Origin: Nonomuraea turcica
GTDB taxonomy: Bacteria; Actinomycetota; Actinomycetes; Streptosporangiales; Streptosporangiaceae
Length of the DNA: 64,000 nucleotides
Direction: 5' to 3'
Assembly: GCF_030718205.1 (NCBI RefSeq)
Contig: NZ_JAUZQF010000009.1
Location: 124,001 to 188,000 of the forward strand
Part shown: piece after piece, positions 8,252-49,266 of the stretch
Numbering within the stretch: the stretch's first letter is position 1
How the letters are laid out: the number at the start of each line of letters is the position of its first letter
Notes under the pieces: model-generated
Database searches by the model: none
What the model was told of the DNA's origin: nothing
Seen by the model: only the letters and a program-made list of their open reading frames with translations
Program-made: the position numbers and the translations under genes

Positions 8252-8252
8252 A

Positions 8253-26481: not shown

Positions 26482-26661
26482 GTGATCACCCGGCCCGGCG
26501 GTACGGGACCGTGGCCGGTGCTGCTGAGCCGGCTGCCGTACGGCAAGCAGTCGCCCATGGTGGCCATGGTGCTCGACCCCGCGGCGGCGGCCAGGCGCGG
26601 CTTCATGGTCGTCCTACAGGACACCCGTGGCCGCTTCGCCTCTGAGGGGGAGTGGGGCCCT
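26482..26661 (+). pseudogene. CocE/NonD-type hydrolase, N-terminal fragment cut by the transposon
   Basis: About 60 residues match the start of the X-Pro dipeptidyl-peptidase/cocaine esterase family: GPWPVLLSRLPYGKQS, then RRGFMVVLQDTRGRFASEG. The frame runs straight into the terminal inverted repeat at 26662. A small piece of a similar gene (WEPWTYEESDGY) appears just outside the right inverted repeat at 43,531. The catalytic serine region is missing from both pieces. Confidence 0.75.
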
Positions 26662-26709
26662 CGAGTAGGAAACCTCCGGTGAACCGGGGTTACTGTCACA
26701 TTTGTTGAC
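26662..26709 (+). repeat. Left terminal inverted repeat of the Tn3-like element
   Basis: The 48 bp beginning CGAGTAGGAAAC and ending TTGTTGAC match the reverse complement of 43483-43530 at 45 of 48 positions. Tn3-family inverted repeats are usually about 38 bp, so the match may extend slightly beyond the true end on either side. Confidence 0.9.
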
Positions 26710-26740
26710 GCCAGTGGGTTGACCAGGTCAGTCTTGCTGG

Positions 26741-27034
26741 ATGGCGGAGTTCGAGGGTGTCGCGTTCATCCGGTCGGATGTTGAGCGGTTCTGTGCCGAG
26801 CTGGTTGGGTTGGCTCCGGCGATCAGGTTGCGGCGGCTCGCGGAGTTGCGGGTGATGCTGGACAGCGTGGTCGCGGCGGCGTCGAGGGCAGCGATGGCGG
26901 ACGCGCGGGGGGAAGGCTGGGGGTTGCGTCGGATCGGTCAGCATGCGGGGATGTCGCACGAGCAGGTACGGCGGTTGTTGGTAGATGTTCCGTCGGATAG
27001 CACGGCTCAGGGGGCTTTGGATCAAGACCCATGA
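26741..27034 (+). CDS. Small helix-turn-helix protein at the left end of the transposon
   Basis: This 97-residue protein is helical (LVGLAPAIRLRRLAELRVML) and ends in a helix-turn-helix (LRRIGQHAGMSHEQVRRLL). It starts 31 bp inside the left inverted repeat and overlaps the next small gene by ATGA. Similar small proteins are common in actinobacteria; a specific role in transposition is not established. It might be a regulator brought with the element. Confidence 0.55.
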   Translation: MAEFEGVAFIRSDVERFCAELVGLAPAIRLRRLAELRVMLDSVVAAASRAAMADARGEGWGLRRIGQHAGMSHEQVRRLLVDVPSDSTAQGALDQDP

Positions 27035-27141
27035 GCGCCGGTGCTCTCGCCGACTTCGTGCTCGCCCGGCTGCTCGAAGAAGAGCAGACCGCGGACCTGT
27101 TCCACGAGCCGACTTGCCAACACAACGGCTGGTGCCCCTAG
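27031..27141 (+). CDS. 36-residue hypothetical protein
   Basis: A short frame overlaps the preceding stop by ATGA. It begins MSAGALADFVLARLLEEEQT and ends EPTCQHNGWCP. The opening resembles the first helix of DUF6221-type proteins, so it may be a truncated member. The translational coupling argues that it was once a real gene. Confidence 0.35.
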   Translation: MSAGALADFVLARLLEEEQTADLFHEPTCQHNGWCP

Positions 27142-27670
27142 CCCGCCCCCCGCCAGATCCTTGATCATGACGTCATGACGGCATGCCGTAATGACGGCCA
27201 GCATTGTTGATGACTGCCGCAAGCAGCTCACCCAACCCGATGGCTGGCCTATCACCGCCATTTACGCTGACAGGCCCTCAGCGCGATCGCACGAGCGGTG
27301 CTTCGCGCGTGTGTCTCCGACCAGCGAGACGATCGACCCGAAGCCGGAGGCGGGAGGGGAACCCAGTTCTCGTTGCTGATGCCCGTGGACGCCAGGTGGA
27401 GGTCGTCGGCCTCCTCGCTCAGGGCCTTACCAACGCCGAGATCGCTGACTGGCTCGTGCTGTCGGTCCGCACGGTGGACACCCACGTCTTAGCCGATGCC
27501 AGCCAGGCCGGGGCGCCAGCGGCCCGTAGTGTTAGCTGTGATCGTTTCGCCCGGCGTGGGGTGGAGGCGCGGCGAGGCTCCCAGCGCTGGCGACCTTCGC
27601 GTGCAATTGCTCGCCTTCAGCCCCCGAACGGCGATCACCCCACCTCTCCACTCTCAACCGTGAACCCGCC
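27142..27670. other. Debris including a LuxR helix-turn-helix remnant
   Basis: On the plus strand at about 27,390-27,490 the sequence reads RQVEVVGLLAQGLTNAEIAD then LSVRTVDTHV, a LuxR-type DNA-binding domain without the rest of its protein; a stop-free run-on follows. Nothing else is recognisable up to the end of the crotonase gene at 27671. Confidence 0.5.
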
Positions 27671-28480
27671 TCATGCCGACCGAGAGCCCGGCTGGAACAC
27701 GGGGGGACGTTTCTCCTGGAGCGCGGCGATGCCTTCCTGCACCTCCGACCCGGCGAACCCGAGGAATTCGAGCGCCAAAGCAGCGTCGAAATGCGGGGTG
27801 GCAGTTCGCAACCAGGAATTGAGCGCCTGTTTGGTCCAGCGCAACGCGGTGGGAGCACCGCCCGCGAGCCGGATGGCGACGTCGGTGGCCTTGTCGAGCA
27901 CCTCGCTATCGTCGACCGCGAGTGAGACCAGGCCGATGCGCTCCGCTTCCGCGCCGTCCAGCGGGTCACACGTGAGCAGGTAGTACTTGGCCTTGGCCAG
28001 TCCGCACAGCAGCGGCCAGACGAGGGCCGCGTGGTCACCGGCGGCGACGCCCAGTTTTGTGTGGCCGTCGATCAGCCGGGCGTCCTTGGCGACCACAGAG
28101 ACGTCAGCGAGCAGGGCCACGACGAGTCCCGCTCCAACCGCCGCCCCGCGTACCGCCGACACCACTGGTTTGGTGAACTCGATGAGGTTGGTCACGAGTT
28201 CGCGAGCTTCGCGGAGCCCGGCGGTCCGGGCCTGCGGGTCGTCGGCCAGGCTGCGGACCCAGTCGAGGTCCCCGCCCGCGCTGAATGTGCGGCCCGCCCC
28301 GGTCACCAGGACGGCGCGCACCCGTGGGTCGGCCTCGGCGTCGCGCCAGACTCGGGTGATCTCCCCGTGGCCAACCGCATCCAGAGCGTTGGCGCGGCGG
28401 GGGTTGTTGATGGTGATCCGCAGGACACCTTCCGAGACCCAGCTCAGGTCCAGCCGCTGGTATTCCGGATACCCGTCCAT
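27671..28480 (-). CDS. Enoyl-CoA hydratase/isomerase (crotonase) family protein
   Basis: This 269-residue crotonase has the oxyanion-hole segments [14 protein letters not shown] and [14 protein letters not shown] and the C-terminal trimerisation helix. At the first catalytic position it has [14 protein letters not shown], where hydratases usually have a glutamate, so it may be an isomerase, hydrolase or dehydratase rather than a plain hydratase. AAGGAGG precedes its start. It is divergent from the second crotonase across an 18-bp operator, so both are probably controlled together. Confidence 0.85.
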
Positions 28481-28488
28481 GATCCTCC

Positions 28489-28516
28489 TTGCATAGTATC
28501 GATCGATCGATACAAT
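28489..28516. promoter_or_regulatory. Divergent promoter with the GTATCGATCGATCGATAC operator
   Basis: The perfect 18-bp palindrome GTATCGATCGATCGATAC occupies 28496-28513. For the plus strand it fills the spacer between TTGCAT (28489-28494) and TACAAT (28511-28516), with the GTG start at 28523 six bases later, so that transcript is probably leaderless. A near-copy lies at 35252-35269. The TetR at 31772 is the likeliest binder. Confidence 0.7.
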
Positions 28517-28522
28517 ACATTC

Positions 28523-29332
28523 GTGTCAATGGAATTCCCAATCCCAGCCGCTGACAGCCACGCCGGACGAGTGCTGCTCCACCATCAAGGGCCGGTGTCG
28601 GTGGTGACGCTGAACCGGCCAGAAAGGCGCAACGCGCTGTCCCGCCAGATGGTGTGCGACCTCATCGATGCGCTCGTCGAGGCGGACGGGCACGACCAGA
28701 CGGCAGCCATCGTGCTCACCGGTACGGGCTCGGCGTTCTGCTCGGGCGACGATCTGTCGGAGGCGGCCCGCACCGACACCGAGACCTTCGACGAGACCAT
28801 CGAGGGGCTGCAACGCGTTACGAGAGTGCTGCTCACCTCCGACAAGCCGAGTGTCGCCGCGATCAACGGCGCGGCGATGGGCGGCGGCCTGGAACTGACC
28901 CTGGCCTGCGACCTGCGGATGGCCGGCCGGGACGCCGTATTCGCCTGCCCGGAGGTGGCCTGGGGCCTGGTGTGCACGAATGGGGCGTCGGTGCTGCTGC
29001 CGTCCCTGGTCGGGCACGGACGTGCGCGCGACATGTTGCTCACCGGACGGACCTACGACGCGACGTGGGCCCTGGCCGCCGGCCTGGTCAGCGAGGTCCT
29101 GCCCGGTGACCAGGTCCTCGACCGGGCTGTCGCACTCGGTGCGGAATTGGCGAGCCGCGCGCAGGCCGTCCGGCTGACCCGGCGGTTGATCAGCGACGGC
29201 GGTCATGAGGATCTGCTGCGTGCGCTGGAACGCGAGGCGGTCACGGTCGGAGAGGCGCGACGCACCGACGTGGCCGAGACTAACCTGCGCGAGTTCGAGG
29301 CTCGCCGGGCGCGAAGGGAGGCTCGGTCATGA
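28523..29332 (+). CDS. Enoyl-CoA hydratase/isomerase (crotonase) family protein
   Basis: This crotonase has 269 residues from the GTG at 28523 (an ATG follows two codons later). The oxyanion-hole segments are GTGSAFCSGDDLSE and INGAAMGGGLELTL, and ACPEVAWGLVCTNGA carries a glutamate at the first catalytic position. It probably hydrates a 2-enoyl-CoA or dehydrates a hydroxyacyl-CoA, and its sequence recalls carnitinyl-CoA dehydratase-type proteins. It overlaps the CoA ligase by ATGA, so the two are co-translated. Confidence 0.85.
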   Translation: MSMEFPIPAADSHAGRVLLHHQGPVSVVTLNRPERRNALSRQMVCDLIDALVEADGHDQTAAIVLTGTGSAFCSGDDLSEAARTDTETFDETIEGLQRVTRVLLTSDKPSVAAINGAAMGGGLELTLACDLRMAGRDAVFACPEVAWGLVCTNGASVLLPSLVGHGRARDMLLTGRTYDATWALAAGLVSEVLPGDQVLDRAVALGAELASRAQAVRLTRRLISDGGHEDLLRALEREAVTVGEARRTDVAETNLREFEARRARREARS

Positions 29333-30894
29333 TCGAAGACGTGCGCACCCTCAGCGACCTCGTCGACCAGCACGCCCGTACCCGGCCCGACCACCTGGCA
29401 GTGCGGGTCGAGGACGACGCACTCACCTACCGCCAACTGGCCGCGCGAGTCCAGTCGGTGGCCGCCGGCTTGGCGGACGACGGCGTGTGCGCGGGGCAGA
29501 GCGTGGCTCTCGTCCTGCCGAACTGCGTCGAGTTCGTCATCTCCTGGCTGGCTCTGGGCCGGATCGGGGCCGTGGCGGCGCCGGTGAACACGGCGCTGCT
29601 GGGCGATGGGATCGCGGCCGCCCTGCGGACGTCCAGGGCCGAGGTCGCGATCGTCGATGAACAGTTCCTGCCGGCGCTGGGGGAAGCGCTGCTGAACGAG
29701 GTGAACCTGCGCGCGGTCTTCGTCCGCAGCCAGGCCGATGCCCACGCCGATGCCGCTTCCTTCCGGCGCTGGGAGGACCTGGCGGCGCCCGCGTCCTCTG
29801 CACCCCGTCACGACACCCGTCCGGGAGACCCCAGCATTCTGCTGTTCACCTCCGGCAGCACCGGCCGCTCAAAGGCCTGTGTGCTGCCGCACCGGTATGT
29901 GCTCCGGCAGGCGGAGGTCTTCTCCGAGCAGCTCGGTCTGACCGCTGACGACGTGCTGTTCTGCCCCTTCCCGCTGTTCCACGCCGATGCCGCGATCTTC
30001 ACCGTCGCCCCCGCGCTCCTGCTCGGCGCGACCGCGGCACTGGTGGAGCGCTTCTCGGTGCGGCGGTTCTGGGACCAGGTGCGCCGCTTCCAGGCGACCG
30101 TCTTCGACTTCATGGGCGCGACGCTGACCATGCTGGACAAACAGGAGCCCGCACCCGACGACGCTGACAACCCCGCCCGGCTCGGCTGGGGCGTCCCGCT
30201 CCCGCAGTGGGCAGGTGACTTCGAGCGCAGGTTCGGCGTCGAGCTCGTCGAGGTGTACGGCCTCAGCGACACCGGGATCGTGCTGTACAACCGTCCTGGT
30301 GAGGCACGTCGCACTGGGGCGTGCGGACGTCCCGTCCACCCGTTCGACGTCAAGGTTCTGGATCCCGACGGATTCGAGCTGCCGACCGGCGAGGTGGGGG
30401 AGATCTGCATCCGGCCCCTTGAGCCGCACGTGATCCTGAACGAGTACCTCGGCATGCCCGAGGTCACCGTCCAGGCGTGGCGCGACCTGTGGTTCCACAC
30501 CGGAGATCTCGCCCGCCGGGACGACGACGGCTACTTCTACTTCGTCGGCCGGGGCGCGGACGTGATCCGCCGACGCGGGGAGAACATCTCCGCCCTGGAC
30601 ATCGAGGCGGTGATCAGCCGGCATCCCGCCGTGCTGGAGGTGGCGGCGTTCGGCGTGCCGAGCGACCTCACAGAAGAGGACGTGATGGCGGTCGTGTCCC
30701 TTCGGCCGGGCGAGAGCCTGGACACCCGCGCCCTGCTCTCCTACTGCGACGACCGGCTACCCCGCCACATGCTGCCGCGCTACGTCGAGTTCACCGGTCC
30801 GCTGCCCAAGACGCCGACCGAGAAGATCGAAAAGCGCGTGCTCAAGTCACGCGGAACCGGCCCCCACACCTTCGACCGCGAAACGCGCGACTGA
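29329..30894 (+). CDS. ATP-dependent acyl-CoA ligase (AMP-binding family)
   Basis: The protein has 521 residues. The adenylation P-loop LFTSGSTGRSKACVLP, the motif VYGLSDTG, WFHTGDLA with its catalytic Asp, and PTEKIEKRVL with the C-terminal lysine are all present. The overall pattern resembles crotonobetaine/carnitine-CoA ligase-type and alicyclic acid-CoA ligases. It activates a carboxylic acid to its CoA thioester and so defines the entry step of the transposon pathway. The substrate cannot be read from sequence. It is translationally coupled to the crotonase before it. Confidence 0.9.
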   Translation: MIEDVRTLSDLVDQHARTRPDHLAVRVEDDALTYRQLAARVQSVAAGLADDGVCAGQSVALVLPNCVEFVISWLALGRIGAVAAPVNTALLGDGIAAALRTSRAEVAIVDEQFLPALGEALLNEVNLRAVFVRSQADAHADAASFRRWEDLAAPASSAPRHDTRPGDPSILLFTSGSTGRSKACVLPHRYVLRQAEVFSEQLGLTADDVLFCPFPLFHADAAIFTVAPALLLGATAALVERFSVRRFWDQVRRFQATVFDFMGATLTMLDKQEPAPDDADNPARLGWGVPLPQWAGDFERRFGVELVEVYGLSDTGIVLYNRPGEARRTGACGRPVHPFDVKVLDPDGFELPTGEVGEICIRPLEPHVILNEYLGMPEVTVQAWRDLWFHTGDLARRDDDGYFYFVGRGADVIRRRGENISALDIEAVISRHPAVLEVAAFGVPSDLTEEDVMAVVSLRPGESLDTRALLSYCDDRLPRHMLPRYVEFTGPLPKTPTEKIEKRVLKSRGTGPHTFDRETRD

Positions 30895-30930
30895 CCACCG
30901 CTTTCCGCCACCGACGACAAGGGTTCCACA

Positions 30931-31704
30931 ATGACCAACGCCTCTTCCCTCAACCACCCCGCTCTCGGCAACGCCACGGCGATCGTGACCGGCGGCGCGA
31001 AGGGCATCGGCGCCGCGATCGTCCGCAGACTGGCCGCGTCGGGCGCCGCCGTCGCCGTCATCGACCTCGACGCCGCAGCCGCGCAGGCGCTCGCCGACGA
31101 GGTGCCCAACGCTTTCGCGCTGACCGCCGACGTCGGCGACCACGCGTCCATGAACGAGGTCGTGGAGGCGGCCTGCACACGGCTGAACGGCCTGGACATC
31201 CTGGTCAACAACGCCGGCTGGGATCACGTGAAGCGATTCGCCGACACCGAGCCGCCGCTGTGGGACAAGCTCATCCACATCAACTTGAAGGGCGTGTTCA
31301 ACGCCACTCACCTCGCCCTTCCCTGGCTCGTCGCACGCGGCGGAGGCCGCATCGTCAACGTGGCCAGCGACGCCGGACGCGTCGGCTCCTCCGGCGAGGC
31401 GGTGTACGCCGCGTGCAAGGGCGGCACGATCGCCTTCACCAAGTCCATCGCCAGGGAGACCGCCCGCCACGGCATCGCCGTCAACTGCGTGTGCCCCGGC
31501 CCCACCGACACCCCCCTGCTCGAAGAGATCAAGCAGGACGAGCGCGCCGCGGCCACCATGGACGCGATCGTCCGCGCCACCCCCGACAGGCGCCTCGCCC
31601 AGCCCGAGGAGATCGCCGAGGCGGTCGCCTTCTTCGCCGCGTCCCCGGCACACGTCACCGGCCAGATCCTGTCCGTCAGCGGCGGCCTGACGATGGCCGG
31701 GTGA
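30931..31704 (+). CDS. SDR resembling 2-hydroxycyclohexanecarboxyl-CoA dehydrogenase (BadH-like)
   Basis: This 257-residue SDR has TGGAKGIG, NNAGWDHVKRF, the catalytic serine in NVASDAGRVGSS and the Tyr-Lys in YAACKGG. The stretches NNAGWD and SDAGRVGSSGEAVYAACKGG are, from memory, close to BadH of Rhodopseudomonas palustris, which oxidises 2-hydroxycyclohexanecarboxyl-CoA. The aspartate in AVIDLDAAAA suggests NAD preference. It would act after a crotonase in the pathway. Similar SDRs act on straight-chain 3-hydroxyacyl-CoAs, so the alicyclic assignment is tentative. Confidence 0.85.
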   Translation: MTNASSLNHPALGNATAIVTGGAKGIGAAIVRRLAASGAAVAVIDLDAAAAQALADEVPNAFALTADVGDHASMNEVVEAACTRLNGLDILVNNAGWDHVKRFADTEPPLWDKLIHINLKGVFNATHLALPWLVARGGGRIVNVASDAGRVGSSGEAVYAACKGGTIAFTKSIARETARHGIAVNCVCPGPTDTPLLEEIKQDERAAATMDAIVRATPDRRLAQPEEIAEAVAFFAASPAHVTGQILSVSGGLTMAG

Positions 31705-31771
31705 CGGCAGCAGTGATCGCAATCCGGTAGGTTCAGCACACGAGATGGTCTCGTCAGGTAGGAGCCGAACG

Positions 31772-32431
31772 ATGCCGCGCCCGCGCGCCGCCGATGCGGC
31801 GGAAACGCCCCGTCGTATCCGCTCGGCAGCCATCAGCCTCTTCGCCGAGCGAGGGTTCCACGGCACGGGCATCCGCGACATCGCCACACAGGCCGGCGTC
31901 ACCCTGTCCTCGCTCTACCACCACTTCGGCAGCAAGGACGACCTGCTGGTGGACATCATGTTCACCAGCACCGCCCCGCTCAAACAAGCCGCCGACCAGG
32001 CGTATCAGGCGCTGGAGACACCCTGCCGACGCCTGGCGATGCTGATCGAGCAGCATGTGTGGGAACACGTCACCGACCGGCTGGCGAAGATCGTCAGCGA
32101 CACCGAGATCCGGGCGCTGTCCGGTGAGCGTCGCGACCGCGTGGTGGGCCTGCGCGACTCCTACGAGAACGTGTGGCGGACCACAGTGGAAGGAGGCGTC
32201 GCCGAGGGCGTGTTCACCGTCTCGCATCCCAAAGCGCTGACCATCGGCCTGCTGGAGATGTGCACCGCGGTGTCCCACTGGTTCCAGCCCAGCGGCGACC
32301 TCACCCTGCCGGAGCTGTGCCACAGCTACGCCGACGGGGGCCTGGCCATGGTTCGCGCCGCACGCGAGGGTCGCCCCGTGCGGCGCGTGGACCTGGAGAT
32401 CGGCGAACCTACGCGGTTCCTGGTGAGCTGA
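31772..32431 (+). CDS. TetR family regulator, candidate repressor of the transposon pathway
   Basis: The protein has 219 residues. The helix-turn-helix is FHGTGIRDIATQAGVTLSSL with YHHFGSKDDLL; the C-terminal domain carries TEIRALSGERRDRVVGLRD, a segment common in regulators of fatty-acid and CoA-ester catabolism (KstR2/FadR-like TetRs). The ATG at 31772 has GGTAGGAG upstream and is preferred to one at 31745. It follows the ligase-SDR genes on the same strand. The operator GTATCGATCGATCGATAC at 28496 and 35252 is the probable binding site, with an acyl-CoA as likely inducer. Confidence 0.87.
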   Translation: MPRPRAADAAETPRRIRSAAISLFAERGFHGTGIRDIATQAGVTLSSLYHHFGSKDDLLVDIMFTSTAPLKQAADQAYQALETPCRRLAMLIEQHVWEHVTDRLAKIVSDTEIRALSGERRDRVVGLRDSYENVWRTTVEGGVAEGVFTVSHPKALTIGLLEMCTAVSHWFQPSGDLTLPELCHSYADGGLAMVRAAREGRPVRRVDLEIGEPTRFLVS

Positions 32432-32493
32432 TCGCGGGAGCACGCTGGTTGGTGGCGAGAGTGTTCTTTGCAGCGCGGAAGGGAGATCATCAG

Positions 32494-33186
32494 GTGTCAC
32501 AAGTTCTCGTCATCCTGACGTCTCACGGGCAACTGGGCTCGACAGGGCAGGCGACGGGCGTGGGGTTGCAGACGTTTGCGTCGCCGTACTACGCACTGAA
32601 GGAGGCTGGTGTCGAGGTTGTCGTCGCATCACCACTTGGTGGCGACCCGCCGGTCGATCCTTTGAGCTTCGGCGAGGGCGTCGAGACGGTGGCTTTGCGG
32701 AGGTTGAATGAGGATGTCGACGCGCGAGCGCTACTGCGTGCGTCGCTGCCCCTGCGGAACGCGGCATCGACTGACTACGACGGCCTCTTTTTCGCGGGTG
32801 GCCATGGCGGAATGTGGGACTTCCCCGATGATCTCGTGGTCGGTGGCCTCATCGCCGCGGCGCTGAACGCGGGCAAGCCCGTTGTCGCGGTGTGCCACGG
32901 TGTTGCCGCATTGTGCGGGACCGATCCGGTGAGCGGCCGACCACTTGTCGAGGGGCGGAGGGTGACGGCACTGACGAACCAGGAGGAGGCCGCACTCGAA
33001 CGCGACGCTCTCGTGCCATTCTTGTTGCAAGACCGACTCATGAAACTGGGCGCCGAGTTCGATGAGGCGGCCAAATTCACCTCGCACGTCGTGGTCCACG
33101 GCTCTCTGATCACCGGGCAGAACATGCGGTCGGCCGACGAAGCTTCGCGCGCCTTCCTGGCCGCACTCGCCTCGCGGTGCGCATAG
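32494..33186 (+). CDS. DJ-1/PfpI family protein (type 1 glutamine amidotransferase-like)
   Basis: This 230-residue protein is like Hsp31/glyoxalase III-type DJ-1 members. The nucleophile elbow AVCHGVAAL holds the cysteine and histidine, and FFAGGHGGMWDF is the characteristic strand. It begins at GTG with GGGAG upstream. Members detoxify glyoxals or act as chaperones. Its place within a catabolic cluster suggests protection against reactive aldehydes, but it may simply be passenger cargo. Confidence 0.85.
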   Translation: MSQVLVILTSHGQLGSTGQATGVGLQTFASPYYALKEAGVEVVVASPLGGDPPVDPLSFGEGVETVALRRLNEDVDARALLRASLPLRNAASTDYDGLFFAGGHGGMWDFPDDLVVGGLIAAALNAGKPVVAVCHGVAALCGTDPVSGRPLVEGRRVTALTNQEEAALERDALVPFLLQDRLMKLGAEFDEAAKFTSHVVVHGSLITGQNMRSADEASRAFLAALASRCA

Positions 33187-33548
33187 GACCAGGTTGCGCC
33201 GACCCACAGCCAAGAGCCGAACCAAGCCACGCGACACGCCGCCCCGAGGTGTCGCACACCTATCGGAACTCCTGTCGCACGCCAGCCGGAACCCCGTCGC
33301 CCAGCTGCCGGAAACACGTCCTCAGAGGGCGATTCACGAGTTGCAGGGCGGTCGGTGGGTGCGATCGCCGGAACTTCTCTATGATCACCGACTTGCCGTT
33401 GTTGGTGGACACGAATAGCCGCAGGTTCCGCATCCGCTGACTCTCCGGCCGGGCCAGCAACGTCTCGATTGGGTCAGCCACCTCGGTGGCACGGGTGTAG
33501 CCCAGAACGACATCACCCGCCCGGCGCCGGGAGATCCGCGGGCTGTTC
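33187..33548. other. 361 bp before the ISL3 element, with a minus-strand gene fragment
   Basis: No complete gene. The minus strand reads a coherent protein-like stretch, including EVADPIETLLARPESQRMRN and LRLFVSTNNGKSVIIEKFRR, that is cut at the ISL3 boundary. I do not recognise the family. It may be a gene interrupted by the insertion. Confidence 0.35.
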
Positions 33549-35209: not shown

Positions 35210-35251
35210 GGCCATGAACACGCTCCTATGGCCGGATCTTGGCAAAGTATT

Positions 35252-35269
35252 GTATCGATCGATCGAATC
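35252..35269. promoter_or_regulatory. Second GTATCGATCGATCGA operator
   Basis: GTATCGATCGATCGAATC at 35252-35269 shares its first 15 bases with the palindrome at 28496-28513. It lies 112 bp before the permease gene and 43 bp beyond the ISL3 end. It suggests that the permease-dehydrogenase-crotonase unit is controlled by the same regulator as the ligase unit. Confidence 0.65.
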
Positions 35270-35380
35270 AATTAGGCTGCCGCCTCAAGCGCCGGGCAGC
35301 CGCGGCCCTCTCATCGCGTGCCGAGGCTGCCCACGCCCGCGTTTCCCCCATCTGCGGTCGGCCTTACTGGAGGCGAACCC

Positions 35381-36778
35381 TTGCCGCACCACAACGACTG
35401 GAATCCCCCACAGGCGCTGCGGCGATCCCTGCGACCTCGACATCTCTCCATGATCGCGCTGGGAGGCGTTATCGGGGCAGGGCTGTTCGTCGGTTCCGGC
35501 GCCGTCATCCACACGGCGGGCGTGCTGGCTCCGCTTGCCTACGCGGCGGGCGGAGTGATCCTGCTCCTGGTGATGCGCATGCTCGCCGAGATGGCCGCCG
35601 CACGGCCCTCGGTCGGCTCGTTCTCGGACTACGCCCGGCTCGCCCTAGGAGATGGGGCCGGGTTCATCATCGGCTGGACGTACTGGTACTTCTGGGTCGT
35701 GGTCGTGGCCTTCGAGGCCGTGGCCGGAGCCGAGATCATCGGCGAGTTTCTTCCACACATTCCGCTCTGGGTCATCTCCGCCGCCGTCATGGGCGTGATG
35801 AGCGTGGTCAACCTGCTGTCCGCGCGAGGATTCGCCGAGGCCGAGTTCTGGTTCGCCGCCGTCAAGGTGGCGGCGATCGTGGTCTTCCTGGCGATCGGGG
35901 TCGCCGCGTTGTTCGGCGTGCTGCCCGGACAGCCGGCGCACGTTCTGGCCATCGGCGACGGCCCGCTCGCCCCGATGGGCGCCGCCGGGGTGTTGAGCGC
36001 CATCACCGTGGTGGTCTTCTCCTACTTCGGTGCGGAGATCGTCACCATCGCCGCCGCGGAGGCCACCGACCCGGTCAGGGCAGTCGTCAGGGCAGCCACC
36101 ACTGTGGTGTGGCGGGTCATCATCTTCTACGTCGGTTCGATCGGCCTCATCGTGTTGCTGATCCCGCATGCCGAGATCCAGCCGGGCGAGAGCCCGTTCG
36201 TCGCCCTCCTGGAGCGGCTCGGCGTTCCGGGGGCGGCCGTCGCCATGCAGCTCGTCGTGCTGACCGCCGTGCTGTCGGTGCTCAACGCCGGCATCTACAC
36301 CGCGTCCCGCATGCTGTTCGCTCTCACCGCTCAAGGTGAGGCGCCGCGCTCCCTGGCCAGGACCACGGCCCGCGGCACGCCGATCCGTGCGATCGTGCTC
36401 AGCACGCTGGCCGGCTGGCTGGCGGTCGCGGTGGCCTACCTCGCCCCCGAGGCGGTGTTCGCGTTCCTGCTCAACGCCGCGGGCAGTGTCGCCTTGGTCA
36501 TCTACGCCATGATCGCGATCTCTCAGCTACGGCTGCGCAGACTCGTCGAGCAGGAGGGTGGAGAGCTGCGCGTCAGGATGTGGGGTCATCCGTATCTGAG
36601 CTGGTTCACGCTGGGGCTTCTGGTGGCGGTCGCCGTCAGCATGGTCGTCCTGCCCGAAACGCGTGGCCAGCTCGGGCTCGGGCTGGTCGCGCCCGCCGGG
36701 ATCGCGGTGATCTACCTCCTCCGGCGGCTGCTCCGGCCCAGGGCCGCGTCCGTTCTCGCGACTGATAAGGCGCAGTGA
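35381..36778 (+). CDS. APC superfamily amino acid permease
   Basis: The protein has 465 residues with about 12 hydrophobic helices. The first contains the amino acid-binding IALGGVIGAGLFVGSG motif of the AAT/GABA-permease group. I prefer the TTG at 35381, with GGAGG 8 nt upstream, because translation from it starts at the typical LRRSLRPRHLSMIA N-terminus; a GTG at 35318 is in frame. It should import an amino acid or amine by proton symport, possibly the pathway substrate. It begins a unit with the dehydrogenase and crotonase genes that follow. Confidence 0.88.
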   Translation: MPHHNDWNPPQALRRSLRPRHLSMIALGGVIGAGLFVGSGAVIHTAGVLAPLAYAAGGVILLLVMRMLAEMAAARPSVGSFSDYARLALGDGAGFIIGWTYWYFWVVVVAFEAVAGAEIIGEFLPHIPLWVISAAVMGVMSVVNLLSARGFAEAEFWFAAVKVAAIVVFLAIGVAALFGVLPGQPAHVLAIGDGPLAPMGAAGVLSAITVVVFSYFGAEIVTIAAAEATDPVRAVVRAATTVVWRVIIFYVGSIGLIVLLIPHAEIQPGESPFVALLERLGVPGAAVAMQLVVLTAVLSVLNAGIYTASRMLFALTAQGEAPRSLARTTARGTPIRAIVLSTLAGWLAVAVAYLAPEAVFAFLLNAAGSVALVIYAMIAISQLRLRRLVEQEGGELRVRMWGHPYLSWFTLGLLVAVAVSMVVLPETRGQLGLGLVAPAGIAVIYLLRRLLRPRAASVLATDKAQ

Positions 36779-36810
36779 CCAGCGGTTTCAGCCAAACACT
36801 TGAAGGAGAC

Positions 36811-37653
36811 ATGACGAATCACCCGCGTCACGTGACGATCATCGGCGGGGGCACCATGGGATGCGGCATCGCCGGCCTCATGGCCGCCACGGGCAGCACC
36901 GTGACCGTGGTCGAGGTCGACCAGGCGGCCGCCGGCCGGGTGGCCGAACGGGTCCGCCGAGAGTGGCCGGACGACGCCGACGCGCTCGCCCGGCTGGAAA
37001 CGACCACGAACCTCTCGCGCACCCCGCCGGAAGCGGACCTTGTCATCGAGGCCGTGGCGGAGGACGCGAAGCTGAAGGCGGACGTGCTCGCCGCAGCCGG
37101 CAGGGTGGCGCCCCATGCGATCCTCGCCACCAACACCAGCTCCATCGCCATCGGCCGACTGGCACAGGCCGTCCATGCCCCGGACAGGTTTCTCGGGCTG
37201 CACTTCTTCAATCCGGTCGCGAAGTCGGCACTGGTCGAGATCGTCACCAGTGAGCGGACAGCGTCGCGGACCGTGGAACTGGCGAAGAGCTGGAGCCAGA
37301 GGTGGCAACGCCACCCCGTCGTCGTCCGCGACAGTCCCGGGTTCGCCACCAGCCGCCTCGGGGTGCTGCTCGGCCTGGAGGCGATCCGCATGGTGGAGGA
37401 GGGCGTGGCAGAGCCGCACGACATCGACACCGCCATGGTCCTGGGCTACCGGCACCCCATCGGCCCGCTACGCCTGACAGACCTGGTGGGGCTCGATATC
37501 AGGCTCGCCATCGCCGAATACCTCTCCGGTGAGCTCGGCGACCGGTTCGCGCCACCGCGACTGCTGCGCGAGAAGGTCGCCGCCGGCCTCCTGGGCCGCA
37601 AAACAGGACAGGGCTTCTACACCTGGACGAGCCGCGCAGCCAACGGCCGATAA
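36811..37653 (+). CDS. 3-hydroxyacyl-CoA dehydrogenase
   Basis: The protein has 280 residues. The NAD-binding fingerprint is IIGGGTMGCGIAG, the cofactor acid is in VVEVDQ, and the catalytic stretch NTSSIAIGRLA then GLHFFNPV carries the active-site His. The C-terminal domain has PGFATSRLG and YRHPIGPLRLTDLVGLD and ends KTGQGFYTW. It oxidises (S)-3-hydroxyacyl-CoA to 3-oxoacyl-CoA. AAGGAG precedes the ATG; the gene lies 32 bp after the permease and 26 bp before the crotonase. Confidence 0.92.
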   Translation: MTNHPRHVTIIGGGTMGCGIAGLMAATGSTVTVVEVDQAAAGRVAERVRREWPDDADALARLETTTNLSRTPPEADLVIEAVAEDAKLKADVLAAAGRVAPHAILATNTSSIAIGRLAQAVHAPDRFLGLHFFNPVAKSALVEIVTSERTASRTVELAKSWSQRWQRHPVVVRDSPGFATSRLGVLLGLEAIRMVEEGVAEPHDIDTAMVLGYRHPIGPLRLTDLVGLDIRLAIAEYLSGELGDRFAPPRLLREKVAAGLLGRKTGQGFYTWTSRAANGR

Positions 37654-37679
37654 CCCGCAGCCAACCGAATGGGAGACCC

Positions 37680-38444
37680 ATGTGCGATGAAGTGATCACC
37701 GAGTACGCCGACGGCCTCGCCGTCATCACCATCAACCGCCCGAAGGCACGCAACGCCATCAACAGCTCCGTCGCCGAAGGCATCGCCGCCGCGATGGACG
37801 AGCTCGACGCCCGCCAGGACCTGAAAGTCGGCATCATCACCGGCGTAGGAGACGTCTTCTGCGCCGGCATGGACCTCAAGGCGTTCCTGCGCGGAGAACG
37901 CCCCTACGTGCCAGGACGCGGGTTCGCGGGCCTGGTCGAGGCGCCTCCGCGCAAACCGCTCATCGCCGCCGTCGAAGGCTACGCCGTGGCGGGCGGATGC
38001 GAGCTGGTGCTGGCGAGTGATCTCGTGGTGGCCGCCCAGAACGCCCAGTTCGGCCTCCCCGAGGTACGTCGAGGGCTGGTCGCGGCCGGGGGCGGGCTGC
38101 TGCGCCTCCCCGGACGCATCCCGTACCAGGTCGCCATGGAACTGGCGCTGACCGGCGACTTCCTGCCCGCGGAACGGGCCCACGCGCTCGGCCTCGTCAA
38201 CCGGCTGACCTCGCCGGGAGAAGCACTGGCGCAGGCCCGGCGGCTCGCCGCCGCGATCGCCGCGAACGGGCCGCTGGCGGTCCGTGTCACCAAGCAGGTC
38301 CTCGTGGAGTCACGAGAGTGGCCGGCGGAGGTCGCCTTCGACCGGCAGCGGGAGCTGATCGCCCCGATCTTCACCTCACACGACGCCCAGGAGGGCGCCC
38401 GCGCCTTCGCCGAGAAGCGGGCGCCGGTGTGGACGGGGGAGTGA
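37680..38444 (+). CDS. Enoyl-CoA hydratase/isomerase (third crotonase)
   Basis: This 254-residue protein is a typical crotonase. The oxyanion-hole segments are GVGDVFCAGMDLKAF and VEGYAVAGGCELVLA, and FGLPEVRRGLVAAGGG carries the catalytic glutamate. Members of this subgroup hydrate short or branched enoyl-CoAs. It ends 1 bp from the 3' end of the convergent TetR gene. Together with the neighbouring dehydrogenase it provides the hydration and oxidation steps of beta-oxidation. Confidence 0.9.
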   Translation: MCDEVITEYADGLAVITINRPKARNAINSSVAEGIAAAMDELDARQDLKVGIITGVGDVFCAGMDLKAFLRGERPYVPGRGFAGLVEAPPRKPLIAAVEGYAVAGGCELVLASDLVVAAQNAQFGLPEVRRGLVAAGGGLLRLPGRIPYQVAMELALTGDFLPAERAHALGLVNRLTSPGEALAQARRLAAAIAANGPLAVRVTKQVLVESREWPAEVAFDRQRELIAPIFTSHDAQEGARAFAEKRAPVWTGE

Positions 38445-38445
38445 C

Positions 38446-39144
38446 TCAGGTGACCCGTTCCGACGGGTCACCGCCTGCTGTTACTGTCCGATACCGCAGC
38501 TCAAGCCCGTCGAGCAGGGACTCAAGACCGACCGCGAAGGCGCTCTCGTTGATCTCCTGCTGCCGCTCGGCGAGGAGATGCGCCTGCCCCAGGTGCGCGT
38601 AGTTCCCCTCGTACACGGTCGCGTCATCGGGAAACCCGCCGGCGAAGGAGCCGAGCGCCGAACCCGTGACGAAATACCGCATGAGCGCTCCCACCCGGGT
38701 GGCTTCACGGCGAGACCACCCGGCCGCGACCAGCCCCCCGAAGACGGCGTCGGCGATCTGCAGCGCATGAGGACGCCGTCCGGGCCCCCTGGCCACCACC
38801 GGGACGATGTTGGGATGCGCGGCCAGCGTAGCCCGGTAGGACTCCGCCCAGGCCGCCAAGGCCGTGCGCCAGTCACGGTCATCGCCACCGAGCCGGGCGA
38901 ACATCGACGTGTCGACCTCGCTGAGCACCGCGTCCACGACGGAATCGACCAGCTCCTCTTTGGTGGCCACGTGGTTGTAGAGCGACGGTCCGCTAACCCC
39001 GAGTTCGGTGGCCAGCCGCCGCGTGGAGACGGCGTCGAGCCCTTCGGCGTCGACCAGGGCGAGAGCCGCGGTCACGATACGTTCCCGGCTCAGCAACGGC
39101 TGACGAGGTCGCGCCACGACGTTCTCCCTGCGCCTGGATGCCAT
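38446..39144 (-). CDS. TetR family regulator controlling the acyl-CoA dehydrogenase unit
   Basis: The protein has 232 residues. The helix-turn-helix is AVSTRRLATELGVSGPSLYN with HVATKEELVDSVVD; the C-terminal domain is of the TetR_C_1 type (long, with YFVTGSALGSFAGG). It is divergent from the acyl-CoA dehydrogenase gene, and the spacer contains two copies of a 19-bp palindrome, so it is probably an autoregulated repressor distinct from the regulator at 31772. Confidence 0.9.
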   Translation of the reverse strand: MASRRRENVVARPRQPLLSRERIVTAALALVDAEGLDAVSTRRLATELGVSGPSLYNHVATKEELVDSVVDAVLSEVDTSMFARLGGDDRDWRTALAAWAESYRATLAAHPNIVPVVARGPGRRPHALQIADAVFGGLVAAGWSRREATRVGALMRYFVTGSALGSFAGGFPDDATVYEGNYAHLGQAHLLAERQQEINESAFAVGLESLLDGLELRYRTVTAGGDPSERVT

Positions 39145-39150
39145 CCTTGA

Positions 39151-39209
39151 AAACTTGCAACGCTAGTTTACCTGGATTACGATGCAATCAAAACTTGCAC
39201 TGCTAGTTT
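39151..39209. promoter_or_regulatory. Two AAACTTGCA-N-GCTAGTTT operators in a divergent promoter
   Basis: AAACTTGCAACGCTAGTTT (39151-39169) and AAACTTGCACTGCTAGTTT (39191-39209) are near-palindromes 40 bp apart. A plus-strand promoter TTGCAA (39155-39160), 17 bp, TACGAT (39178-39183) begins inside the first. The second lies at the transcript start, just before GGAGGA and the ATG at 39221. Confidence 0.75.
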
Positions 39210-39220
39210 TGGAGGACGGG

Positions 39221-40372
39221 ATGAACCTCGAACTGTCCGAGGAACAGATCGCCGTACGGCAACTCGCTGCCGAATTCGTCGCCCGCGAGATCACTCCCCA
39301 TGCCGGTGACTGGGACCGCGCGGAATCCGTCGACCGGACGATCGTGGACCGGCTCGGCGACCTCGGATTTCTCGGCCTGACGATCCCCGAGGAGTACGGC
39401 GGCTCAGCGGGCGATCATCTGGCCTATGCCCTGGTGTTGGAGGAACTCGGCCGGGGCGACTCCGCCGTCCGCGGAATCGTGTCCGTCTCTCTGGGCCTCG
39501 TCGCCAATTCGATCAACACCTACGGCGACGAGGACCAGAAGAAACGATGGCTGCCCGCCCTCACCAGCGGCCAGGCACTGGGATGCTTCGCACTGACCGA
39601 GCCGGGCAGCGGATCCGACGCGGCCGGGCTCACGACCAGGGCCGAGCGCGCCGGCGCGGATTGGCTGATCAGCGGTTCCAAGATGTTCATCACCAACGGC
39701 ACCTGGGCGGACGTCGCCTTGGTATTCGCTCGTACCGGGGAACCCGGCCACCGGGGCATCACGGCCTTCCTCGTGCCGACCGACACTCCCGGCCTCGAAC
39801 GCCGGGAATTGCACGGCAAGCTCGGCCTGCGCGGACAACCCACCGCCGAGCTGATCTTCGACGCCGTGCGCGTGCCCCGAACAGCTGTCCTGGGTCCTGA
39901 GGGCAAGGGTTTCTCCATCGCCATGGCGGCGCTGGCCAAGGGCCGCATGTCCGTCGCAGCCGGATGCGTGGGCCTGGCACGAGCATCCCTGGAGGCGGCC
40001 GTCGCGTACGCCAAAGAGCGCGAGCAGTTCGGCAAAACCATCGCCGCCCACCAACTCGTGCAGGATCTGCTCGCGGGCATCGCGGTGGACGTCGACGCGG
40101 CCCGGCTGCTGGTGTGGCGGGTCGCCGACCACATCGACCGCGGCCTGCCGTTCGCCACAGAATCCTCGATGGCGAAGCTGTACGCCAGCGAGGCGGCCGT
40201 GCGCGCCGCCAACGACGCTATTCAGATCTTCGGCGGCTATGGCTACATCGACGAATACCCGGTCGCCAAGTACCTGCGAGACGCCCGCGTGATGACCCTC
40301 TACGAAGGCACCAGCCAGGTCCACAAGCTACTGATCGGCCGGGCCCTGACGGGCGTCGCCGCCTTCACCTGA
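39221..40372 (+). CDS. Acyl-CoA dehydrogenase
   Basis: The protein has 383 residues, full length. The FAD/substrate segment CFALTEPGSGSDAAGL, FITNGTWAD, and the C-terminal QIFGGYGYIDEYPVAKYLRDAR with LYEGTSQVH are present; the glutamate of YEGTSQ is the usual catalytic base for short-chain members. It oxidises an acyl-CoA to 2-enoyl-CoA, passing electrons to ETF. I start it at the ATG at 39221 with GGAGGA; a start at 39182 would translate the operators. It is followed after 20 bp by the thiolase. Confidence 0.93.
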   Translation: MNLELSEEQIAVRQLAAEFVAREITPHAGDWDRAESVDRTIVDRLGDLGFLGLTIPEEYGGSAGDHLAYALVLEELGRGDSAVRGIVSVSLGLVANSINTYGDEDQKKRWLPALTSGQALGCFALTEPGSGSDAAGLTTRAERAGADWLISGSKMFITNGTWADVALVFARTGEPGHRGITAFLVPTDTPGLERRELHGKLGLRGQPTAELIFDAVRVPRTAVLGPEGKGFSIAMAALAKGRMSVAAGCVGLARASLEAAVAYAKEREQFGKTIAAHQLVQDLLAGIAVDVDAARLLVWRVADHIDRGLPFATESSMAKLYASEAAVRAANDAIQIFGGYGYIDEYPVAKYLRDARVMTLYEGTSQVHKLLIGRALTGVAAFT

Positions 40373-40392
40373 GCCAGTGAAAGGAACTCCTG

Positions 40393-41571
40393 ATGCGTCC
40401 CGTCTACTTCGCCGCTGCCCGCCGAACTCCCATCGGCAAACTGCACGGCTCGCTGTCGAACGTCCGTCCGGACGACTTGGCGGCCACGGTCCTGCGCGGC
40501 CTGCTCGCCGACGTACAGGCACTCGACCCGGCCCGGATCGACGACGGCTACTGGGGCGCCGCCAACCAGTCCGGAGAGGACAACCGCAACGTCGCGCGGA
40601 TGAGCGTCCTGCTCGCCGGCCTCCCGGACACCGTCCCCGGAGCCACGGTCAACCGGTTGTGCGGCTCAGGAATGGAAGCAGTGATCATCGCCGCCCGCAC
40701 CGTCGCCGCCGGCGAGGCGGACGTCGTCGTCGCCGGCGGTTCCGAATCCATGAGCCGCGCCCCCTTCGTGCTGCCCCGCCCCGACGAACCCTTCCCGCGA
40801 ACGCTCGATACCCACGACACACGCCTCGGCTGGCGACTCACCAACCCCCGGATGGCCGACCTGCACGGCGTCCTGTCCATGGGGGAGACCGCCGAAGAGG
40901 TCGCCACGCGGCATGGCATCACCCGTGACCAGCAGGACACCTTCGCCTTGCGCAGCCACCAGCGCGCCGCCGCCCACCGTGCCGGCGCCTTCGACGCCGA
41001 ACTCCTGCCGGTCGAACGCGCCGACGGCGTCACGGTGACGGCCGACGAATGCATCCGCGAGAACACCAGCCCCCAGCGCCTGGCCTCACTCAAACCCGTC
41101 TTCCGCGCGGACGGTACCGTCACCGCAGGCAACGCCTCCCCCATGAACGACGGCGCCGCCGCACTCCTGCTGGTGAGCGAGCAGGCACTCGCCGACCTCG
41201 AACCGCTGGGCCGCTACGTTGCAGGGACGATCGCCGGCGTGCACCCCGACGTCATGGGCCTCGGCCCGATCCCGGCCACCCGCAAGGCGTTGACCCAGGC
41301 CGGCTGGGCGATCGACGACCTCGACACAGCCGAGATCAACGAGGCGTTCGCCGCCCAGGCCCTCGCCTGCCTCCAGGACCTGCGCATCGACCCCGACCAG
41401 GTCAACCCCGACGGCGGCGCCATCGCACTGGGCCACCCACTCGGCTGCTCGGGCGCACGCATCCTCACGACCTTGCTGCACCGCATGAACCGCACGAACG
41501 CCACAAAGGGCCTGGCGACCATGTGCGTCGGCACGGGGCAGGGCGTTGCAGTCCTCGTCCAGCACGTCTGA
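40393..41571 (+). CDS. Acetyl-CoA acyltransferase (thiolase)
   Basis: The protein has 392 residues. The nucleophile is in NRLCGSGMEAV, the second catalytic region is NEAFAAQ, and the C-terminal GGAIALGHPLGCSGAR and CVGTGQG motifs are present. It resembles PcaF/beta-ketoadipyl-CoA thiolases as well as general FadA-type enzymes. It cleaves 3-oxoacyl-CoA with CoA, completing the beta-oxidation cycle encoded in this element. It is co-transcribed with the acyl-CoA dehydrogenase. Confidence 0.93.
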   Translation: MRPVYFAAARRTPIGKLHGSLSNVRPDDLAATVLRGLLADVQALDPARIDDGYWGAANQSGEDNRNVARMSVLLAGLPDTVPGATVNRLCGSGMEAVIIAARTVAAGEADVVVAGGSESMSRAPFVLPRPDEPFPRTLDTHDTRLGWRLTNPRMADLHGVLSMGETAEEVATRHGITRDQQDTFALRSHQRAAAHRAGAFDAELLPVERADGVTVTADECIRENTSPQRLASLKPVFRADGTVTAGNASPMNDGAAALLLVSEQALADLEPLGRYVAGTIAGVHPDVMGLGPIPATRKALTQAGWAIDDLDTAEINEAFAAQALACLQDLRIDPDQVNPDGGAIALGHPLGCSGARILTTLLHRMNRTNATKGLATMCVGTGQGVAVLVQHV

Positions 41572-41588
41572 CTCCGCCGGCGGAGACC

Positions 41589-41966
41589 ATGACCCCTGGA
41601 GCCCGGCGCCGGGTGCGCGCATTGGCCGCGGCCGTGAGAAAAATCAGCCCAGGTCGTGGCGACCGAATCGCCCTGTTGTGTCCCGGCGTGAAGAGGTCTC
41701 ACCACGTCCGCCACGCCATCCTTGCCGCAGGAGCGGAGGTCGTGCAGGTGAGCCCTCTGATGACGGCTGATGAGATCATGCGACTGCTCGTGGACAGCCG
41801 TGCCGAAGTGATGCTGTGCCACCGCAACATGATCGCCGTGGGTTCGCAGGCAGCGCGGATGGCGGGCATCCGGCTGTTCACCATCGGCCCACCGTCCAGG
41901 GCGCCGGGCTCCGATGGCCGTCTGGAAGACCTGGCAGAGGCGCTGGCCGCCAACGCGAGGGGATGA
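41589..41966 (+). pseudogene. Acyl-CoA synthetase, N-terminal fragment
   Basis: About 125 residues follow the thiolase by 17 bp and match part of an AMP-forming ligase N-terminus (RVRALAAAVRKISPGRGDRI, then IALLCPG and AEVVQVSPLMTADEIMRLLV). The P-loop and the entire catalytic core are missing. It is a truncated second CoA ligase whose 3' part was lost near the transposase. Confidence 0.7.
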
Positions 41967-42119
41967 AGCATCACATTCTTACGATCGCTCGGCCCCACGA
42001 ACTCCAAGACCACCGGCAGAACACTGGCGCCCTGACCCGCGCTGCGGCGCCGACGAGCTGGGCCGGTCCAGGCGAGATCGAACCCTGAACCGACCGAGGC
42101 CTTCCGCTTCGGCGGGACC

Positions 42120-43370
42120 TTACTCGCCGGGCGGAGGTGTACGGAGCGGCCAGAGGTTGCCGTCGCGTACGGCATCGGGCAGGGAGAAGCTGTAGCGTCC
42201 CAGGAAGTTCAGGTGATCGAACCCCGGGGGGCCAAGTCGGGCGATGTCGGCGGCCGAGATCTTCCTGCCTTCGGCCCGGAGTGCTTCCAAGGCCCGCGCC
42301 GTGTAGATCGTGTTCCACAAAATACAGACATTGGTCATGAAACCGCGCCTAGTTGATCTTCCTGGCCTTCTTTGTATTTTTGGCGGAGTTCGCCCTTCTG
42401 GCCGTGGAAGATCTTGCGGGCGAGGGTGTGGCGGGCTTCTTGGCGGTTGAGCTGGGTGTTGACGCGGCGGCGTAGGAGTTCGTCGTCGAAGTAGGAGGCC
42501 AGGTAGGTGGAGCGGTCGAGTTTGCCTAGCTCCATGAGGGCGCGGCCGATCGGGGTCGGGGTGCCGCCGCCGGCGAAGTAGCGGAACAGCTCGGCCGGCC
42601 GGACCGCGTTGGTCCGCAGCGCCCCCGCGACCCGCAGCAGTTCGTCCCAGTGATCGTTGATGAGGTCGAGGTTGACGCGGCTCTTGATCAGTGGGTCGAG
42701 GCGTTCGTAGAAGGCGGCGGGGTCGGCCCGGTACAGGGTGGCGCTGCCGACATCGGCCAGGCGTGGGGAGAACTGGAATCCCAGCAGCCGGAAGATCCCG
42801 AACGCGATCTCCGAGGCGCCCGCGGTGTCGGAGGCGATCTCGGTCGGTTGCAGGGACGTTTCCTGCTCCAGAAGCCCTTCCAGGAGGTAGTACCAGTCCT
42901 TGGGGGTGCCGGGGATGACGATGCCGTGAAACCCGGAGAACTGGTCGGAGGTGAAGTTGTAGCAGGTCACGCCCTTGGCGCCCTTGCCGAAGTACTTGGT
43001 GTTCGGCCCGGCGTTGATGGTCTTGACCGGGACCACGAACCGCAGCCCGTCGGCGGAGGCGAGTTCGCCGCCGCCCCAGGCCTGCACGAGTTCCAGGCTG
43101 GAGTGGTAGTCGACCAGGGTCGTGTTCGCCGCGGTGAGGGTCGCGGCCCGGATGTAGTTCTGCTCGGCCCAGAACAGCCGGTCCAGGGCGAGCGCGGGCT
43201 CGGTGTCGTTGACCATGGGTCAGATCCCGACATTCATGGACTGGGCTACCAGGACAGCGGCGATCGACTTGATCATGTCCTCGCGGCGGGAGGGCGCTTC
43301 GTCGGAGACGTGGGTGAAAGCGTTCAGGCAGCCGGTCCAGGAGTGGACCTCCAGCAGCGCTTCGGGCGCT
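42120..43370 (-). pseudogene. Tn3 family transposase, C-terminal part, disrupted
   Basis: Three pieces of one transposase read on the minus strand: ALLEVHSWTGCLNAFTHVSD (from about 43,365), then a TGA at 43220-43222, then a 293-residue stretch (43,216 to 42,335), then after a frameshift the last 72 residues (TNVCILWNTIYTARALEALR to LGRYSFSLPDAVR). The catalytic residues are visible in ASADGLRF, ASDTAGASEIAFG and NRQEARHTLAR. The N-terminal DNA-binding half, roughly 55-60% of the usual 1000 residues, is gone. It cannot be active. Confidence 0.88.
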
Positions 43371-43482
43371 GTTCAGGGTTCAACGCCGTCAACGCCATCA
43401 GACCACCCCTCCTCATAGATCGACTCGTCACACCTTCCCGCCGTACGCCAAGCGAGGATCCGAGCCAATCATGGACCAGGCT

Positions 43483-43530
43483 GTCAACGGATGTGACAGT
43501 AACCCCGGTTCACCGGACGTTTCCTACTCG
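43483..43530 (-). repeat. Right terminal inverted repeat of the Tn3-like element
   Basis: This is the reverse complement of the left repeat with three mismatches over 48 bp. It lies about 110 bp beyond the surviving transposase segment. Confidence 0.9.
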
Positions 43531-48691: not shown

Positions 48692-48723
48692 CGCTCAACT
48701 TTGAAGACCCGGATACCGGGCGC

Positions 48724-49231: not shown

Positions 49232-49266
49232 GTTTTGAAACTCACATGGTGATGGCCCAACTGAAT

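Follow-up and report, generated by a model that had tools for sequence, protein, structure and literature searches.

A probable non-autonomous Tn3-family transposon derivative enclosing a catabolic gene cluster in Nonomuraea turcica

In this work we ask how a set of coenzyme A (CoA)-dependent catabolic genes came to lie between two long inverted repeats in the chromosome of Nonomuraea turcica, and whether a transposon carried it there. The window, i.e. the whole stretch of 64,000 nucleotides that was analysed (NZ_JAUZQF010000009.1, positions 124,001 to 188,000), is part of a 426.6-kb contig of a 12.66-Mb draft genome in 113 contigs, and all coordinates below are those of the window unless another locus is named. 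We consider with good confidence that the 16,881-bp segment from 26656 to 43536 is a non-autonomous derivative of an actinobacterial Tn3-family transposon, in which a captured catabolic cluster moved as part of the transposon, which was then crippled. The catabolic Tn3 elements known to us are proteobacterial. For comparison we used 53-54 Nonomuraea genomes (53 in the scans for transposon ends and integration host factor (IHF) genes, the own genome counted), including G046, which is labelled as the same species, and G020, G043 and G044; 297 genomes of the order, self included, for two cargo proteins; and a set of 20 loci (L025-L044) for tnpA, the small end protein and the resolvase.

The left (26656..26709, plus strand) and right (43483..43536, minus strand) terminal inverted repeats are 54 bp long and identical at 50 of 54 positions (4 mismatches), so that the 48-bp pair (45/48) reported in an earlier note on this DNA turns out to be part of a longer one. 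This is the longest and most complementary of the long inverted pairs in 20000-50000, the runner-up (53 nt, 85%) being both ends of an ISL3-family insertion sequence. A 24-base core of the repeat, allowing up to 3 mismatches, is found at two places in the genome, both of them the ends of this element, and the backward-read control gave 0 matches. The outer edge, GGCC, is where similarity ends in the compared relatives, as judged by eye. Immediately outside both ends lies an exact 5-bp direct repeat, AGTGG (26651..26655 and 43537..43541), which the earlier note had missed. Such a target-site duplication (TSD) is as expected of the Tn3 family, and 5-bp duplications are confirmed for Tn4556 in the accessible text of PMC6403206.

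The target was a CocE-type hydrolase gene, whose left piece (26490..26655, plus strand) terminates in the target duplication and whose right piece (43542..43578, plus strand) is truncated shortly beyond. In silico excision of the element with one AGTGG copy fuses the two frames (...DTRGRFASEGEW-EPWTYEESDGYR) into one open CocE frame. The fused frame has 13 PDB matches, all to cocaine esterase (E 3e-8 to 1e-7) and mostly to its residues 28-93, and the junction is free of gaps in the three printed alignments. The gene has decayed on both sides: upstream it lacks about 153 bp that G046 has, and on the right it breaks off after about 12 codons. Comparison with a related strain lacking the element, a check proposed in the earlier note, was possible in part: G046 carries both flanks at 96-99% identity without the element, but its CocE gene is damaged rather than uninterrupted. 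G020 and G043 retain the flank with CocE likewise damaged, so that an intact empty site was found in none of these three genomes, and the empty-site argument rests on the TSD and the fused frame.

Inside the right end lies a tnpA remnant (42123..43366, minus strand) that corresponds to residues ~616-1033 of a Tn3 transposase of 1033 aa; TnpA lacks its first 60%, and the remainder contains one in-frame stop and one frameshift. It is 82-84% identical to the intact 1033-aa TnpA of a Nonomuraea roseoviolacea element (L029), and matches PF01526 with 326 bits (gathering score 24) and positions 615-899 of NF033527 with 339 bits, the cut-off of 500 for the latter being set for whole proteins and this one being a fragment. 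The catalytic D-D-E residues are kept at the positions of Tn4430 D679, D751 and E881, as given in the accessible text of PMC9579193. Because it has no complete TnpA of about 1000 aa, we class the element as a Tn3 derivative and not as an autonomous member. The remnant is directly preceded by the first 11 codons of a mihF-like gene (43366..43398, minus strand), recognized by motif and position and too short for a BLAST match, and the two are fused by a deletion. A single deletion could therefore explain the loss of the rest of mihF, of any resolvase and of the front of tnpA. Three clade serine resolvases used as queries found nothing similar within the element, and no tyrosine resolvase appeared there in the Pfam scans of the larger open reading frames (ORFs), the one search that covered them. 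Elsewhere in the draft genome, whose gaps may hide one, no close full-length TnpA was seen; other traces are a match on contig C21 (88% to residues 40-124), a partial one on C39 (44%), and distant ones.

In two related loci tnpA is itself interrupted: that of L121 (a Streptomyces plasmid, 7860-12500) is split by site-specific integrase genes, and that of L032 (a Pseudonocardiales metagenome-assembled genome, from ~6690) is cut by a stretch with recombinase-like frames, identified by eye. The cut codon is nearly identical in both, which looks like a fixed integration site. We had considered that the frameshift near 42341 might be the scar of such a tyrosine-recombinase element (L121, probably L032), and dropped this idea since the positions are several codons apart.

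Just inside the left end is a gene for a small 97-aa protein (26741..27034, plus strand), with no Pfam or NCBIfam match and, judged by eye, probably DNA-binding. This protein is encoded in 14 of the 20 loci besides the window, and orthologues occur on Streptomyces plasmids. Both genes are present in 13 relatives; in 11 of these the small gene adjoins the 3' end of tnpA and is convergent with it, and in the other two (L036, L033) it is upstream of tnpA. Two of the Streptomyces plasmid elements have the convergent arrangement, and the third, whose tnpA is interrupted by tyrosine recombinases, keeps the small gene and the end. The distance between the small gene and the tnpA remnant of the window is 15.1 kb. 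The same family of inverted repeats is found at the ends of tnpA-bearing relatives. By sequence comparison, then, the ends, the TnpA remnant and the small end gene belong to one Tn3 clade of actinobacterial elements, found also in Nonomuraea, Sinosporangium and Streptomyces plasmids; among the transposase relatives, nine of the 17 loci from named genomes are from Nonomuraea. The clade ends number 30 in 15 of the 53 genus genomes (the own genome and its three ends counted), against 0 in the backward control. In the own genome, the looser clade end pattern used for this purpose finds one further end, on contig C41.

Seven relatives have paired ends, with 48 to 54 of 54 identical positions, and four of them have an exact 5-bp TSD (L029, L035, L040, L101); an eighth pair, L038, appears only at a lower threshold, and its flanks are mismatched by eye. 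The ORFs of five of the seven were scanned for passengers, with no background rate for comparison, and four contain metabolic genes: short-chain dehydrogenase, alpha/beta hydrolase, zinc alcohol dehydrogenase and TetR genes in L029, TetR and short-chain dehydrogenase genes in L035, an aminotransferase and an AsnC regulator in L101, and an aldo/keto reductase in L102. Nothing beyond transposition genes was found among the ORFs scanned in L031. L101 lies in the same-species genome G046 and was considered as a donor; this was ruled out, as its genes are others (aminotransferase, AsnC regulator, RHS repeat).

The Tn3 origin of the element, which the earlier note had proposed together with the decayed transposase, the enclosed catabolic genes and the CocE-type fragments outside both ends (here found to be in frame with each other), is thus well supported at the sequence level by the transposase domain, ends common to Tn3 elements of the clade, the TSD and the restored CocE frame. 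A refuting condition that it had named, repeats unrelated to any Tn3-family end, did not hold.

Whether this Tn3 transported the catabolic genes is a separate question. The region 27664-41942 is colinear in G044 at 84-87% DNA identity, except for the ISL3 element and for the DJ-1 gene, whose G044 counterpart lies at another place on the contig; G084 matches the right half of the cluster at 93%. No terminal repeat above background was found within 45 kb around the G044 cluster (best 30 of 54) or within 34 kb around the G084 cluster (best 28), and G044 has one clade end, on a different contig (C38). In G046 there are only scattered paralogue-level matches and ISL3 copies. The ligase has matches at E <1e-140 in 15 of the 297 genomes of the order, self included, the nearest being in G044 (86%), G160 (78%) and G268 (63%), and the hydroxyacyl-CoA dehydrogenase has matches at E <1e-100 in three. 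In this sample the cluster appears rare and patchy, as horizontal transfer would be expected to give; the base composition of cargo and flanks shows no contrast. The same cargo order without the repeats, which the earlier note had named as a refutation, thus does exist in one genus genome (G044), but this leaves the evidence for the ends untouched; it indicates that the cluster exists independently of the transposon and was captured.

Several observations weigh against the reading in which the transposon captured and moved the cluster. G044 has the cluster, and G160 and G084 have parts of it, in the absence of these ends, so that nothing shows this Tn3 to have moved it. Neither the own genome, which has just this one pair of ends of its type, nor the genus genomes yielded another copy of the element with this cargo; L026 and L027 are the sole other loci with this type of repeat among 54 genus genomes, and neither has a DNA match to the cargo. 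The empty site of G046 is not intact, its CocE deletion having removed the target stretch; three of the seven paired relatives (L031, L034, L102) have no TSD; and the operator-like palindrome described below was not found in 19 kb around a more distant cluster, in G294.

The main rival is capture in situ: a small Tn3 would have inserted in CocE first, and the cluster would have entered it afterwards by other means (a second mobile element, or recombination, homologous or illegitimate), so that the Tn3 never moved the cargo. The cluster of about 14.3 kb, ISL3 element included, sits at an unusual site, separating the 3' end of tnpA from the small end gene (convergent neighbours in 11 of 13 relatives with both); it occurs free of these ends elsewhere; and the stretch 27035-27663 has no DNA-level match in any fetched locus. 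All three points would fit late addition. However, no repeat of more than 9 exact bases joins the cargo junctions, so that no border of a second element is seen, and Tn5046 is a precedent for passenger genes downstream of tnpA (accessible text of PMC7157771). We regard late addition as rather unlikely, and transport of the cargo by this Tn3 as the most likely reading, held with some confidence. A second alternative, which we consider less probable still, is that the left (small gene) and right (tnpA) ends come from two different Tn3 elements, one on either side of the cluster in a donor chromosome, that were mobilized as a pair. L035 (4381-16652) is such a case: its two repeats are unlike (48/54), both of its ends have an IHF gene, and an exact 5-bp TSD flanks the whole. 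It is apparently a hybrid of two Tn3 elements moved as one, and shows that a unit of 12.3 kb can be carried by ends that differ from each other and each have an IHF gene. The ends of the window element also differ, at 4 of 54 positions, but 50/54 is within the range of 48 to 54 of the seven paired relatives, and the window has a single copy of each end-specific gene, with the polarity of one element. Finally, repeats that arose by chance or by an unrelated inverted duplication around a resident cluster, as the repeat-free cluster of G044 might suggest, are highly improbable given ends shared with Tn3 elements of the same transposase clade, the exact TSD with the restored frame, and the absence of the element from G046.

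In the reading that we prefer, transport by the Tn3, we infer that the catabolic cargo travelled with the transposon. The cluster would have been captured from a Streptosporangiaceae-type chromosome and moved within the transposon by paste-and-copy transposition; it may have given the host the uptake, activation and beta-oxidation of an acid, with one TetR regulator (A, below) acting at two private operators; a later deletion would have taken away the DNA-binding part of tnpA together with most of mihF and any tnpR. The element would now be immobile unless a same-clade transposase acts in trans.

The cargo comprises a ligase-to-thiolase gene set, a permease and two TetR genes. It follows an unassigned junction stretch with a LuxR-type helix-turn-helix fragment (27035..27663) and begins with two divergent genes of the enoyl-CoA hydratase/isomerase family, ECH1 (27671..28480, minus strand, NF005595 above cut-off) and ECH2 (28529..29332, plus strand, start codon picked by eye), separated by a first palindromic operator-like site (28494..28515). 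Then come, all on the plus strand, an AMP-forming acyl-CoA ligase (29329..30894), a short-chain dehydrogenase (30931..31704), TetR-family regulator A (TetR_C_24; 31745..32431), a DJ-1/PfpI family protein (32482..33186) and the ISL3-family insertion sequence (33548..35210), which has an open transposase frame (33619-35154), 53-bp ends (85%), and relatives at 89% DNA identity in G046 and G050. A second operator-like site (35250..35271) lies upstream of an amino-acid/GABA-permease-like transporter (35318..36778, plus strand). It is followed by a 3-hydroxyacyl-CoA dehydrogenase (36775..37653, plus strand), the crotonase/enoyl-CoA hydratase ECH3 (37680..38444, plus strand, NF006100 above cut-off), TetR-family regulator B (38446..39144, minus strand), and, on the plus strand, an acyl-CoA dehydrogenase (39182..40372), an acyl-CoA thiolase (40393..41571) and an AMP-binding ligase remnant (41572..41942), at which homology with the repeat-free G044 cluster ends on the right. 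We tried to name a substrate from NCBIfam and PDB matches and claim none: the short-chain dehydrogenase is nearest to the NCBIfam model BadH and the thiolase to PcaF models, both below cut-off, and of the listed models the one whose cut-off the thiolase clears is that for acetyl-CoA C-acyltransferases in general. Two of the PDB searches, with strict limits, gave no match.

With up to 3 mismatches allowed, the 12.66-Mb genome has just two copies of the 22-bp palindrome, each of them within the cargo, and none is expected from shuffles of the window. It is kept in G044 (3 sites), G160 (2), G268 (1) and G084 (2). In the DNA fetched, G160 and G268 have TetR A and no match to TetR B, and G084 has TetR B and no match to TetR A. 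Because the palindrome-bearing G160 and G268 have TetR A without a TetR B match, TetR A is the likelier candidate for the cognate regulator. Near host short-chain dehydrogenase genes on either side of the element, repeated GAAACCGRTCGGTTT-type sites (24668-24718, 48722-48772 and 49264-49314) look like operators of a host regulator.

The 11 mihF codons inside the right end belong to a feature that recurs in the clade. We aligned six genes of 103-104 aa that lie within clade ends. PF22525 was hit by all five that were scanned for it, and all three scanned for NF041260 (actinobacterial integration host factor) scored above its cut-off; a profile of the six retrieves the solved proteins SCO1480 (4itq) and MIHF (6tob). 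IHF genes lie about 80-90 bp inside a Tn3 terminal repeat in L035 (4522-4833 and 16212-16517), L037 (9215-9526), L040 (2579-2890), L041 (11026-11337), L102 (969-1280), L104 (10214-10528), L113 (2848-3150) and L116 (8515-8823). L113 (1696-3293, near the edge of contig C41) is the second Tn3 end of the own genome, with a resolvase 91% identical to that of L029. The 53 genus genomes each have two IHF genes, at 54-59% and 42-43% identity to the query (one gene in an incomplete genome), and together 12 extra copies at 65-92%. Seven of these 12 are about 80-90 bp inside an independently found end and one more is inside an end from a later scan, two lie beside a resolvase without a recognized end, and two have neither, one of them at a contig edge.

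Among 39 ends in 36 sequences (L036 and L105 contain one and the same end), the small protein is present at 17 and an IHF gene at 10 (nine near-complete and one remnant, in L029). The other 12 have neither by BLAST, which argues against a general rule of IHF carriage; the right end of the window, L026 and L106 are among them, yet their first IHF codons are kept, as judged by motif. In the paired elements the IHF gene is complete in three of seven (L035, at both ends, L040 and L102), a remnant in L029, and absent from L031, L034 and L101, and the three Streptomyces plasmid loci have no IHF gene in ~15 kb each. In Escherichia coli, IHF is supplied by the host and binds next to the ends of Tn1000; some of the elements compared here encode one themselves. 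It is conceivable, and we propose it tentatively from these gene arrangements, that the window element is a relic of a Tn3 lineage of actinobacteria with an mIHF gene of its own just inside the tnpR-side repeat and a second small, probably DNA-binding protein inside the other end. Such a lineage would supply its own architectural factors instead of the host's, and would have used them to capture and spread regulated metabolic cassettes among Streptosporangiaceae; the complete IHF gene in just three of seven paired elements led us to lower our confidence in it slightly. Literature searches on Tn3 with IHF or mIHF, and on Nonomuraea with Tn3, which left subscription papers mostly outside their reach, found no account of this element or of a Tn3-borne IHF. 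Those members of the clade that have an actinobacterial IHF gene next to the terminal repeat would allow a direct test, in Gram-positives, of what IHF does in Tn3 transposition.

How does the element compare with known systems? The Tn4651/Tn4655-type transposons of Pseudomonas belong to the Tn3 family and carry catabolic operons. They differ from the window element, which has a beta-oxidation cargo and a broken tnpA, in their proteobacterial hosts, aromatic pathways and larger size (38-56 kb in the accessible text of PMC10494377). The nic-gene element of Paenarthrobacter is also a putative catabolic transposon of an actinobacterium, but is flanked by site-specific recombinases and insertion sequences, and "Tn3" is absent from the main text of the paper (PMC10494377). 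Tn4556 of Streptomyces, the Tn3-family element that has been characterized in actinobacteria, resembles the window element in its Tn3 DDE transposase of about 1000 aa, long inverted repeats, 5-bp target duplication and passenger genes; it differs in being active, with 38-bp repeats, 6.6 kb, other passengers and a resolvase with a PF00589 motif, and no IHF gene is among its four ORFs described in the accessible text (PMC6403206). TIMEs and TIME-COMPs, which are non-autonomous Tn3 derivatives (accessible text of PMC4133298), share with the window element Tn3 ends without working transposition genes, and activation in trans is reported for Tn3-family elements; however, a TIME-COMP has two copies of a miniature element, whereas the ends of the window element are a small-gene end and a tnpA end, each present once, with no two whole element copies among them. 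Closest are L029 (9.6 kb) and L101 (6.6 kb), which share the TnpA clade, the repeat family, the 5-bp TSD and the small end gene. L101 has other genes and a frameshifted tnpA. L029 also carries oxidoreductases, a hydrolase and a TetR gene, but has an intact tnpA, a resolvase and its cargo between tnpR and tnpA. In the window element, a rare actinomycete provides a documented case of Tn3 ends that enclose a beta-oxidation regulon, with both the target duplication and the restored target gene as evidence.

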